NCBI GenBank assembly: GCA_030748415.1
Contig: JASMMA010000005.1
Coordinates: 67,434 to 131,433, forward strand
Length of the DNA stretch: 64,000 nucleotides
Source: Planctomycetota bacterium
GTDB lineage: Bacteria > Planctomycetota > UBA1135
Reading direction: 5' to 3'
Part shown: positions 4,584 to 43,126 of the stretch, one piece after another
Numbering within the stretch: position 1 is the first letter of the stretch
Layout: each line of letters starts with the position of its first letter
Made by a program: the position numbers and the translations under genes
Notes under the pieces: generated by a model
What the model was told of the DNA's origin: nothing
Seen by the model: only the letters and a program-made list of their open reading frames with translations
Databases searched by the model: none

Positions 4584-6359
4584 ATGCTCGCCCTTGCCAT
4601 CCTCGCTTTAGCTCTTGGCCCTTTGCTTTACCGCTTGGCTGGGAGGTCGTCGTATTCCCTGGCGGCGCTAGATGGCTTCGTTCGAGTTGCGGTCGCCGGC
4701 TTAATCTTGGCCCATGTCCTTCCCTGGGCTTGGGAGCTTGGGGGTTGGCATACTCTTCTGTGGTTTGCTGGCGGAATGCTCATTCCTCTAGCTCTGCACC
4801 GCGCCTACGAATCACCCTCCCACGGATTAGGTGCTGAAATTGGAATGAGCGCTTTTGCTCTCGCGCTTCATGCTTTTTTCGACGGCACCGCTCTCGGCCC
4901 TCACGGTGGAGCTGATTCGAGCTCCAAAATGTTGGCCCTTGCGGTTGTGCTTCACAGGATTCCGGTCGGACTTGGAATCTGGTGGTTGATACGCCCAAGA
5001 TTCGGGAGGAAAGCCGCCTGGTTAGTTTTGACTCTCCTTGCCTTGGCAACGGCATGTGGTGCTTTTGCAGGTCATGAAATCCTTGAAGGCGCCTCAGCCT
5101 CTTGGGTTGCTTTCCTTCAATCTTTAATCGCGGGCGCCTTACTGCATGTTGTTCTTGGCCATAGCATGGTTGCAGTTTCCGGAAACGGTGGGGCACCATC
5201 CGCAATGGGCGGGCTCCTCGCGCTCGGCCTTTTAGGTTTGCTTTCTTCGTTCGAAGTCCCAGGAGGCGAACATGCCCTCCTCCCTGGATTCTGGGATACT
5301 TTCCTCTCCTTAACTTCCCAAAGTGCTCCAGCATTATTGGCGGCATCCGCCACCATTATGTTGACAAAGGCCTTCGTTCCAGGTTCCATGATGCGGCTTT
5401 TTCATGGACGAAACTCCGTTGACCAAGCGTTGCGAGGAACGGTGGCAGGATTGCCTGTTCCGATTTGTTCTTGTGGCGTGGTTCCTGTTTACCGAGGATT
5501 GGTCGAGGCTGGCTCCCCACCTCCAGCTTCGTTGGCCTTTCTTGTCGCAGCACCGGAAGTGGGTTGGGCTGCGATTTTACTTTCAATAGGTCTGCTTGGA
5601 TCTGAGCTCACAATTGCACGAGTGGGAAGTGCAGCCATTTTGGCTTTGGTTGTTGGAGTTGTTGTGGGGAAATTTGTTCAACCTACATCCAAGGTTCAAG
5701 AAGAAGTTCAACCTCCAAGACCGCCATTGGGAGACCGCATTCGTGAAGGGTTTCAATATGGATTCAAGACAATCGTTGACGATACTGCACCTTGGATTTT
5801 GGCAGGTTTGTTGCTGGCGGCTGCAGTCGAGCCTGTCCTTCAAACTGGTTGGCTTGCCAACTTGCCGGTCGGTTTAGACATTCTTCTGGCAACTTTGATT
5901 GGCCTTCCTCTTTATGTCTGCGCCTCGGGGAGCACTCCTCTTGTTGCCATTCTGCTGGCGAAAGGCCTTTCGCCCGGAGCTGGCATTGCTTTTCTATTGA
6001 CCGGTCCTGCAACAAACCTCACAACAGCCGGACTTCTATCTTCCCTTCACGGGAAAAAGGTCGCTGTCATTTTTGGCATCACCATGGTTTTAATGGCCGT
6101 TGCCGTTGGCTTTGGCGTGAATGCTGTTTTGGGTACAGATGCGAACCCTGTCGCCGCAGACGCAATTCATCGTCACCCCGACACCTCTAACATTGTCTTT
6201 GTTGGTCTCTTGGCCTTGGTTTATCTCGCTTCCCTGTTCCGCCAGGGAGTCCTCGGTTTTATTGGCAAGGTCATCCGACCTCATGCTGAAGAAACCGGCA
6301 CAATGGAAACCTCACCCGAGCAACCCGCTACCTGTTGTTCCAGCAAATCGTCCTCATGA
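4584..6359 (+). CDS. Fusion of a ZIP-like membrane domain with an ArsP/DUF318-type permease
   Basis: 591-aa polytopic protein. Residues 1-230 contain ZIP-like signatures: HAFFDGTALG near residue 93 and, one helix later, HRIPVG near 128, where ZIP metal transporters carry HxxxDG and HExPxG motifs. Residues ~245-540 match the predicted permease family that includes ArsP: PICSCGVVPV near 298, a GSPPPASLAFL helix, then GLPLYVCASGSTP and LTGPATNL later. The tail ends in a Cys pair and Ser/Lys residues. The probable role is efflux or exchange of a soft metal or metalloid across the inner membrane. The stop codon overlaps the peptidase ATG (ATGA), which implies translational coupling. Confidence 0.8.
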   Translation: MLALAILALALGPLLYRLAGRSSYSLAALDGFVRVAVAGLILAHVLPWAWELGGWHTLLWFAGGMLIPLALHRAYESPSHGLGAEIGMSAFALALHAFFDGTALGPHGGADSSSKMLALAVVLHRIPVGLGIWWLIRPRFGRKAAWLVLTLLALATACGAFAGHEILEGASASWVAFLQSLIAGALLHVVLGHSMVAVSGNGGAPSAMGGLLALGLLGLLSSFEVPGGEHALLPGFWDTFLSLTSQSAPALLAASATIMLTKAFVPGSMMRLFHGRNSVDQALRGTVAGLPVPICSCGVVPVYRGLVEAGSPPPASLAFLVAAPEVGWAAILLSIGLLGSELTIARVGSAAILALVVGVVVGKFVQPTSKVQEEVQPPRPPLGDRIREGFQYGFKTIVDDTAPWILAGLLLAAAVEPVLQTGWLANLPVGLDILLATLIGLPLYVCASGSTPLVAILLAKGLSPGAGIAFLLTGPATNLTTAGLLSSLHGKKVAVIFGITMVLMAVAVGFGVNAVLGTDANPVAADAIHRHPDTSNIVFVGLLALVYLASLFRQGVLGFIGKVIRPHAEETGTMETSPEQPATCCSSKSSS

Positions 6360-41102: not shown

Positions 41103-41876
41103 ATGCCCATCCCCCTTCAAGACGCCTGGCTTTACGGTCCCGTGGATTCTCGCCGCTACGGCCGAAGCCTTGGCGTGAACCCCTTGCCAGTGGACCGCAA
41201 ACTCTGCTCCCTTGACTGCCTTTACTGTCAGTATGGTTTCACAAAGGCGCAAAATGTTGCAGGACGAGCGGAACTTCCCGGATTAGACGAACTGAAAGCT
41301 GCGTTTCATCGAGAATTTTCCCGATTGGCTGAAGCGAATGACCTACCTAACAGAATCACAGTTGCTGGAAATGGCGAACCCACCCTGCATCCCGATTTTT
41401 TGGAAATCAGCCGCGCCCTATGCAAAAGTCGCGACCAACATTTTCCTGGCGCCACAATTGGTTTGCTCTGCAACTCCATGCACCTCAATCGCGAAGATGT
41501 CGTTGAGGCGATTAACAACTATTACGACGAGCCAGCTATGAAGTTGGAGTGGGGAACCGCCGACTGCTTTGCCGCCATGAACCGAGTTCCTGCGGATCGG
41601 TTTAAATCTTTGCTCTCTGGTTTAGAAAAAATCCGTCGTTTTGTTGTGCAAGCCTTATTTATGCATTCCCCACATGGGGACAATGCAACCCAAGAAGAGG
41701 TCACGCTTTGGATTGAACATATGACCCATCTTCGTGACCGCATTGTTCGAGTAGAACTTTATTCTTTGGATCGACCTCCAGCCAATGCAGCGGAAGCCAC
41801 TCGATTATCCCAACAAGAGCTGGCATCAATTGCGGACCGTGTTTCGGCTGCGGGATTCGAAGTCGAAAGCTACTGA
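41103..41876 (+). CDS. Radical SAM protein, wyosine-synthesis-like family
   Basis: 257 aa from ATG 41103. CSLDCLYCQYG near residue 40 is the CX3CX2C cluster motif, preceded by GPVDSRRYGRSLGVNPLP, a conserved opening of the COG0731-like family related to tRNA wybutosine enzymes. ITVAGNGEPTLHPDF and LLCNSMHLNREDV follow. The actual bacterial substrate of this branch is not established. No SPASM-type extra cysteines are present, so it is not a sulfatase maturase. It overlaps the convergent thioesterase gene by 7 nt. Confidence 0.87.
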   Translation: MPIPLQDAWLYGPVDSRRYGRSLGVNPLPVDRKLCSLDCLYCQYGFTKAQNVAGRAELPGLDELKAAFHREFSRLAEANDLPNRITVAGNGEPTLHPDFLEISRALCKSRDQHFPGATIGLLCNSMHLNREDVVEAINNYYDEPAMKLEWGTADCFAAMNRVPADRFKSLLSGLEKIRRFVVQALFMHSPHGDNATQEEVTLWIEHMTHLRDRIVRVELYSLDRPPANAAEATRLSQQELASIADRVSAAGFEVESY

Positions 41877-42238
41877 ACAGGAACCGGTCGGCGGTTTTCA
41901 TCTACCGCGACATAAACCACTTCCGCTTCAGTCACTTTAATTTCCTCACGGGTCGGATCGGATCTCCGACGCACCATTACTTCCACTTTTGCCGTAACCG
42001 ATGTTCGGCCAACGCTCACAAGTTCCGTGTAGAAGGAAACTTGGTCCCCTACGAAAACAGGCTCATGAAAAATAACCTTGTCCATCGCAACAGTGACATA
42101 TCGGCGAGCGGCGTTGACTTTGTGAGCTTCCACAACGGCAGCAAGGTCAATATGGGACAAAATAACACCACCAAAAATCGTGCCGGAGGCGTTTGTGTCC
42201 TTGGGCATCAGGATAGTTCGAATCGCAGGCTCTCTCAT
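41870..42238 (-). CDS. Hot-dog acyl-CoA thioesterase (YciA-like)
   Basis: 122 aa from ATG 42238 (MREPAIRTILMPKDTN). The motif NASGTIFGGVILSHIDLAA holds the catalytic Asp of the acyl-CoA hydrolase family and is followed by VTVAMDKVIFHEPVFVGDQVSFY. It hydrolyses acyl-CoA to free acid and CoA in the cytoplasm; chain preference unknown. A longer open frame to 42307 adds an unconserved leader and is not used. Confidence 0.9.
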   Translation of the reverse strand: MREPAIRTILMPKDTNASGTIFGGVILSHIDLAAVVEAHKVNAARRYVTVAMDKVIFHEPVFVGDQVSFYTELVSVGRTSVTAKVEVMVRRRSDPTREEIKVTEAEVVYVAVDENRRPVPVQ

Positions 42239-42356
42239 TCCCCTATTATGCTCAGAGGGTGCGTTGCGTTCTGCAACAAATCTCTTCAATCCTGGGCGAA
42301 ATCGCACACTTTGCCAAAAAGAGACCCCTAACAGCCCTGGATTTCTCCTCTAGGAG

Positions 42357-42373
42357 TTGGCACGGTGCTTGCA
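42357..42373 (+). promoter_or_regulatory. Sigma-54 (RpoN) -24/-12 promoter
   Basis: TTGGCACGGTGCTTGCA matches the sigma-54 consensus at every conserved position, with GG at 42359-42360 and GC at 42371-42372 in the required 12-nt register. It points rightward, with a start expected near 42384, into the 42239-42487 gap. No annotated plus-strand gene follows. A 30-codon hydrophobic, Trp/Gly-rich frame (42415-42507) begins about 30 nt downstream of the expected start. It could also drive a regulatory RNA or antisense to the hydrolase gene. Confidence 0.65.
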
Positions 42374-42460
42374 TCTATCTGAAGGTCTGCAAAACCCTGA
42401 CGAAGGTCCCAGTCATGCTCGGCTGGGGAATGTGGACATACAGGGGGTTGGCCTGGGGGC

Positions 42461-42502
42461 TTTTTGGGGCTCTCGGGCCACTTTTTATTACTGCCCCAAA
42501 AA
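42461..42502. repeat. 10-bp inverted repeat at the hydrolase 3' end
   Basis: TTTTTGGGGC at 42461-42470 and its exact complement at 42493-42502 are separated by 22 nt. The structure spans the last codons of the alpha/beta hydrolase and the end of the small plus-strand frame. It could fold on either strand, but no T run follows the stem as a terminator would need. Confidence 0.5.
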
Positions 42503-43126
42503 CTTAGCCGTTGCTGTTCGGACCGCTGGGAGCATTCCATGAAAAAAGTGATTGGCTCCCTCAAGAATCTGTATCTCAGCGCCTTGCTCTTGAATGGGTT
42601 TCATTTTTGAGATGTCCACAAATTCGTCTTTATTACCTGCCAGTACTTTCATTCTTTGCGGCCATTGGGTTATCGAAGGCCAAGAATAAAACTGGGTCGG
42701 CCAAGCAATTGCCATGTACTGGGCACAACTTTTCCCGACTCGGTCGGCTAACTCAAGCCCAACGACTGAACCAAAACTAAAACCCCAAATTGCGCGAGGA
42801 GTACCAGGAAACCTATTCCCCAGCCAAGCAAAAGCGCACTCCGCATCATGGACCTCCCCATCCCCTTTGTCGTATTCACCTTCCGAATCTCCAACGCCGC
42901 GAAAGTCAACCCGCAAAGCCGCCCACCCAGCTTCAAGAGCACCCAATGCTCCCCATCGCACTACATTGTTCTTGCGAGAACCGCCATGTTGCGGGTGAGG
43001 ATGAAGAAGTAAAAGGGCACCCTTGGGTTCCCCGCTCGGGACTTCCAAGGTCGCGGAAAGGCGGCCGATAGGGCCGTCTAAAAAAATCCTTTCGGGTGGA
43101 GGGGTATCAAGGTCGCGTGGGGTCAT
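42488..43126 (-). CDS. Alpha/beta hydrolase (dienelactone hydrolase-like)
   Basis: 212-aa soluble hydrolase. The nucleophile elbow GFSFGS is near residue 117; FRGVGDSEGEYD is the strand-loop just before it, and LLHPHPQHGG forms the oxyanion side. The acid Asp lies in AGNKDEFVD and the His in GANHFFHGM. It resembles the small COG2945-type hydrolases of unknown substrate. The sigma-54 promoter downstream would give antisense transcription into its 3' end. Confidence 0.87.
   Translation of the reverse strand: MTPRDLDTPPPERIFLDGPIGRLSATLEVPSGEPKGALLLLHPHPQHGGSRKNNVVRWGALGALEAGWAALRVDFRGVGDSEGEYDKGDGEVHDAECAFAWLGNRFPGTPRAIWGFSFGSVVGLELADRVGKSCAQYMAIAWPTQFYSWPSITQWPQRMKVLAGNKDEFVDISKMKPIQEQGAEIQILEGANHFFHGMLPAVRTATAKFLGQ

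Follow-up and report, generated by a model that had tools for sequence, protein, structure and literature searches.

The window analysed here, a 64,000-nucleotide stretch of a planctomycete contig, carries a predicted sigma-54 promoter, an upstream palindrome and a proposed small RNA between a thioesterase gene and an alpha/beta hydrolase gene (Table 1). The RNA would run divergently from the thioesterase gene and convergently with the hydrolase gene, and downstream of it there is no + strand gene until about 43096. For the thioesterase we assumed an ATG start near 42239, based on the conserved protein start in the same-genus relative UBA7888; the list of open reading frames places the start at GTG 42307. 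The sequence-only reading of this DNA had reported a sigma-54 promoter at 42357-42373 with no known target gene. We found TTGGCACGGTGCTTGCA at this position on the + strand, and the second part of the claim holds insofar as no protein gene comes after the promoter.

Table 1. Features of the thioesterase-hydrolase region; positions are those of the window.
Feature	Positions	Strand	Details
4HBT thioesterase gene, divergent to the RNA	41870..42239	-	PF03061, E 1.9e-13
Candidate enhancer (UAS), palindrome TGGGCGAAATCGCACA	42293..42308	+	matches TGTGCGANNTCGCACA at 13/14 positions
Sigma-54 promoter TTGGCACGGTGCTTGCA	42357..42373	+	-24 GG at 42359-42360, -12 GC at 42371-42372
Proposed small RNA, ~105 nt	42384..42489	+	start predicted from the -12 element
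5' structured domain of the RNA	42385..42437	+	closing stem GUCUGCA/UGUGGAC, two inner hairpins
Unpaired G-rich motif ACAGGGGGUUGG, candidate active site	42440..42451	+	conserved in g1, g6, g8, g14, g15
Intrinsic terminator	42450..42489	+	stem GGCCUGGGGGC/GCUCUCGGGCC, then ACUUUUUAUU
30-codon frame, judged not coding	42415..42507	+	ATG 42415, TAG 42505-42507
Alpha/beta hydrolase gene, convergent with the RNA	42488..43126	-	PF02129/PF12146; stop codon 42488-42490

The same reading had considered such a promoter match rare by chance. This is true of the window, in which 0.015 matches to TGGCACGNNNNTTGCW are expected, but not of the 2.46 Mb genome, for which the expectation is ~0.6 and in which our scan returned one match to the pattern and one to a backwards control pattern. 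The motif by itself is no evidence for a promoter, and its credibility comes from comparison across relatives: the predicted site is credible because the promoter, the upstream palindrome and the transcript are all conserved, the promoter being kept in UBA7888 and at the same place in genera g6, g7 and g8. The absence of rpoN, which had been named as grounds for dismissing the promoter, does not apply, as the genome encodes RpoN (E 1.4e-57), whose RpoN box is intact; the genome also encodes six enhancer-binding proteins that are clear sigma-54 activators. Sigma-54-dependent small RNAs are a known kind of regulator, and the combination of a -24/-12 promoter, as predicted here, with rpoN in the same genome would place this locus among them. 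At L107 (G000:C3:26190) we observed a sigma-54 activator whose open frame stops just past the AAA+ region, with no DNA-binding domain visible. The second-best sigma-54-like site of the window, TGGCAGGTTTGTTGCT (5800-5815, +), has one mismatch to the pattern. Outside the window, a good sigma-54 site, TGGCACAAAGCTTGCA, is found at L069 (G000:C55:32873), 15 nt 5' of a response-regulator-like gene and without a palindrome.

The palindrome that constitutes the candidate enhancer is the sole one of its kind within the window, and its CGCA core lies 51 bp from the TGG of the -24 element. We first spotted the palindrome by eye in the six copies of the thioesterase-hydrolase slot, upstream in all of which (6/6) TGTGCGANNTCGCACA is present, and afterwards tested it by a search for palindrome plus promoter, GCGNNNNCGCAN{21,51}TGGCACNNNNNTTG, alongside a control pattern. 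In the 26 genomes of the family this search returned 21 matches versus 0 for the control, and across the order's remaining 128 genomes 26 versus 18. The gaps between core and promoter cluster at 21, 30-33 and 50-51 bp under a pattern that admits no gap above 51 and so cuts the distribution off, and longer spacings could exist. None of 20,000 uniform draws was equally periodic, a result that holds with orthologous promoters collapsed by hand to 13, and the gap classes of ~21, 30-33 and 50-51 bp put the predicted sites on one face of the DNA. The palindrome thereby has the helical phasing of an upstream activator site, as a predicted binding site. Pattern matches in G023 (L017) and G095 (L015), in or at protein genes, were set aside as looking like chance, and one in G099 (L016/L115) may be either chance or genuine. 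Among the matches examined in the window's genome, no promoter besides that of the RNA has the palindrome, and the other loose sigma-54 matches inspected there are all without it.

UBA7888 (loci L011/L004) was the sole return of a contig scan with the hydrolase protein, and it is apparently one and the same contig as G001. Its gene order is identical to that of the window, and its hydrolase protein is 76% identical. Block by block, identity to the window is 76% for the thioesterase coding sequence and 70% for that of the hydrolase, with 41% at third codon positions. Upstream of the RNA it is 88% in the palindrome, 43% in the spacer from palindrome to promoter, 84% in the -24/-12 element and 36% from promoter to start; within the RNA it is 81% in the 5' domain, 77% in the G-motif and 86% in the terminator. 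Selection appears to work on the putative enhancer, promoter and RNA as three separate modules.

Furthermore, eight genomes from six genera of the family share a unit composed of the palindrome, a sigma-54 promoter, a terminator and a structured RNA whose G-tract is exposed. In six of the eight, the unit occupies the thioesterase-hydrolase slot (two genomes of g1; G006 and G018 of g6; G008 of g8; G007 of g7), and the remaining copies lie just beyond the thioesterase (G015, g15) and at another locus, away from the hydrolase (G014, g14). Cases in g4 (G021, G017), plausible though not certain, were left out of the eight-genome count. In several other genomes of the family, thioesterase and hydrolase nearly adjoin, with no space for the unit. 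A 22-base match in G003 (L014) was rejected as a homologue, as it is merely a similar sigma-54 promoter of a protein gene; positions 1501-1670 of that locus have two divergent sigma-54-like promoters between a gene for a YceI-like protein and one for an MMPL-like membrane protein, functions that are assigned by sequence only. In another family of the order (G064-G066; L078, L079, L080), we observed the same palindrome and sigma-54 promoter followed by ~190 nt of a conserved, different sequence that has a terminator-like end and is located directly upstream of a crcB/fluC-like gene.

Folding of the window's RNA gave z -2.75 to -3.35 against shuffles, and most homologues likewise folded clearly better than their shuffles (z -2.5 to -4.7). 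The UBA7888 RNA alone showed only a modest gain (z -1.0 to -1.3), and this counts against the RNA reading, as do the small number of compensatory changes overall and a 5' domain that differs from genus to genus. The outer stem of that domain is retained in UBA7888, where a G-U pair has become A-U; the base pairs that vary between the window and UBA7888 still pair, through one-sided changes, and two base pairs are altered on both sides in the g6 pair. Terminator and hairpins are present in all homologues, and across genera the terminator stems are unlike in sequence and the same in position. Seven homologues aligned with MAFFT had diverged too far to support a sound covariance model. No Rfam family, Qrr, GlmY/GlmZ, CrcZ and CsrB included, matched the RNA, at a permissive threshold too. 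The G-rich ACAGGGGGUUGG overlaps the terminator stem, which opens with the motif's last two bases. As for the homologues, AAAACCAGAACAGGGGGATG is common to G008, G015 and G014, and (A)CAGGGGG(T)TGGCC or a close variant is common to g1 and g6; in G007, G021 and G017, GGGGG is displayed in the terminator loop instead.

The sequence-only reading had proposed a small membrane peptide, a regulatory RNA or an antisense transcript as the product of the promoter. The hydrophobic, Trp- and Gly-rich frame behind the peptide proposal does exist in the window, from the ATG to the TAG that had been given for it. In UBA7888 it is broken by stops and by one-base indels of the RNA, despite ~80% DNA identity, the other homologues have no equivalent of it, and the terminator comes before its stop codon. 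Since the frame is interrupted in the relative and closes only beyond the predicted end of transcription, it is not a conserved peptide, and we give hardly any credence to a transcript that codes for it. The locus is thus predicted to give a non-coding transcript that stands by itself, stops at its own terminator and contains no conserved frame. That the transcript would be directed into the hydrolase 3' end agrees with an antisense role against the hydrolase, or with a long leader for a distant + strand gene; against both, the predicted terminator meets the hydrolase stop codon, so that overlap with the hydrolase is nearly nil, the next + strand gene begins only at about 43096, and the g14 unit is situated away from the hydrolase. 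We regard these options as very improbable, and the earlier antisense proposal falls with them. It is, in our estimate, very improbable that the sigma-54 match is accidental and that the conserved sequence serves otherwise, for example only as the terminator region of the hydrolase. The ~0.6 exact matches expected per genome would leave room for such an accident, but promoter and phased palindrome recur in place in four genera with their surroundings lost, and the U-run is on the + strand side, an orientation of the terminator that suits the RNA. The option that finds support is the regulatory RNA: the transcript is conserved and structured, and it has a predicted promoter, a candidate enhancer site and a terminator to itself.

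Such an RNA could also titrate a protein via its G-rich motif, like CsrB/RsmZ or CrcZ, and not act by base pairing. CrcZ is a sigma-54-dependent RNA that titrates a protein, and the unpaired, short and strongly conserved ACAGGGGG(A/U)UGG could serve as a protein site; it resembles the CsrA consensus in part. The likeness to CsrB/RsmZ lies in the unpaired state of the G-rich motif. However, CsrA is missing from 26 of 26 family genomes, which removes the CsrB-type model, and each RNA has a single copy of the motif, whereas titrating RNAs usually have several. We therefore consider titration unlikely. The exposed G-tract would be the best candidate for the active site in either case, as a pairing seed for mRNAs, which we prefer, or as a protein site.

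Known sigma-54-dependent small RNAs include Qrr (LuxO), GlmY/GlmZ (GlrR), NrsZ (NtrC) and CrcZ (CbrB). The RNA proposed here is like these in being a free-standing small RNA with a -24/-12 promoter, an upstream activator site and an intrinsic terminator; unlike them, it belongs to another phylum, has no Rfam match, and has an activator site (TGTGCGANNTCGCACA) and a G-tract motif of its own. A sigma-54-dependent quorum regulatory RNA is also described in PMC10162802. Sigma-54 has been presented as a controller of the bacterial exterior, tied to envelope and lipoprotein functions and to the small RNA GlmY (Francke et al. 2011, PMC3162934); searching its text gave no mention of planctomycetes, and our system resembles its proposal in linking sigma-54 to lipoproteins and the envelope. 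In the PrsK/PrsR module of PEP-CTERM genes, an activator motif and a sigma-54 motif precede genes for exported surface proteins (Haft et al. 2006, PMC1569441). The arrangement of an activator site and a sigma-54 promoter ahead of surface-protein genes is alike, but the module seen here precedes genes for lipoproteins and FG-GAP proteins as well as an RNA, and none of the six activators is of PrsR grade: the best reaches 391.3 bits against a TIGR02915 cut-off of 502.6. Membership in a PrsR regulon was rejected on this ground. Our search, which covered a set of open-access papers, turned up no study of a small RNA dependent on sigma-54 from Planctomycetota, and a 2025 survey of sigma-54 regulons across phyla (PMC12316311) does not contain the terms sRNA, small RNA or noncoding.

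In sister genera, the palindrome and sigma-54 promoter precede large lipoproteins and FG-GAP proteins. Assigned to groups from their sequences, the proteins behind the module comprise three lipoprotein families (L121/L123/L130; L135/L127; L142/L132) and secreted proteins with FG-GAP-type repeats (L128/L138). With a looser promoter pattern, the matches that have a strong palindrome precede lipoproteins, FG-GAP proteins or the RNA. Because the same module stands before these proteins in sister genera, the RNA most likely acts in a cell-surface regulon. Among the matches examined, the window's genome has no further palindrome promoter, so the link to surface proteins here rests on the sister genera; with the palindrome only at the RNA promoter, this genus may retain the RNA as its chief target, or the promoters of other targets may have diverged.

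We propose that an activator responding to some signal would bind the palindrome at 42293-42308, and that the bound enhancer-binding protein would activate RpoN polymerase at 42357-42373. The resulting transcript of ~105 nt would start near 42384 and end at the intrinsic terminator near 42489, and its product would be the RNA itself, composed of the 5' structured domain, the unpaired ACAGGGGGUUGG and the terminator hairpin. This RNA would most likely act in trans and post-transcriptionally in the cell-surface regulon, its exposed G-tract pairing with C-rich stretches of target mRNAs. Taken together, we favour the interpretation that the site serves as promoter for a trans-acting small RNA, so far undescribed, which depends on sigma-54 and an enhancer and probably belongs to a cell-surface regulon, and we put the probability of this reading at roughly 0.8. 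The promoter, palindrome, conservation, terminator, synteny and absence of conserved coding are supported by computation on sequence, and from there we infer a start site, an activator, a pairing mode and targets.

More tentatively, and with considerable doubt on our part, an uncharacterised enhancer-binding protein of this planctomycete family might run a dedicated surface regulon in which one small RNA with an exposed G5 tract sets the levels of giant lipoproteins post-transcriptionally. The link to lipoproteins fits the view that sigma-54 controls the bacterial exterior (PMC3162934), and the locus offers a testable triple of RNA, promoter and enhancer linked to large surface lipoproteins. 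If the proposal is true, it would constitute an envelope-control circuit with a small RNA in a lineage that lacks CsrA, independent of the known proteobacterial ones.
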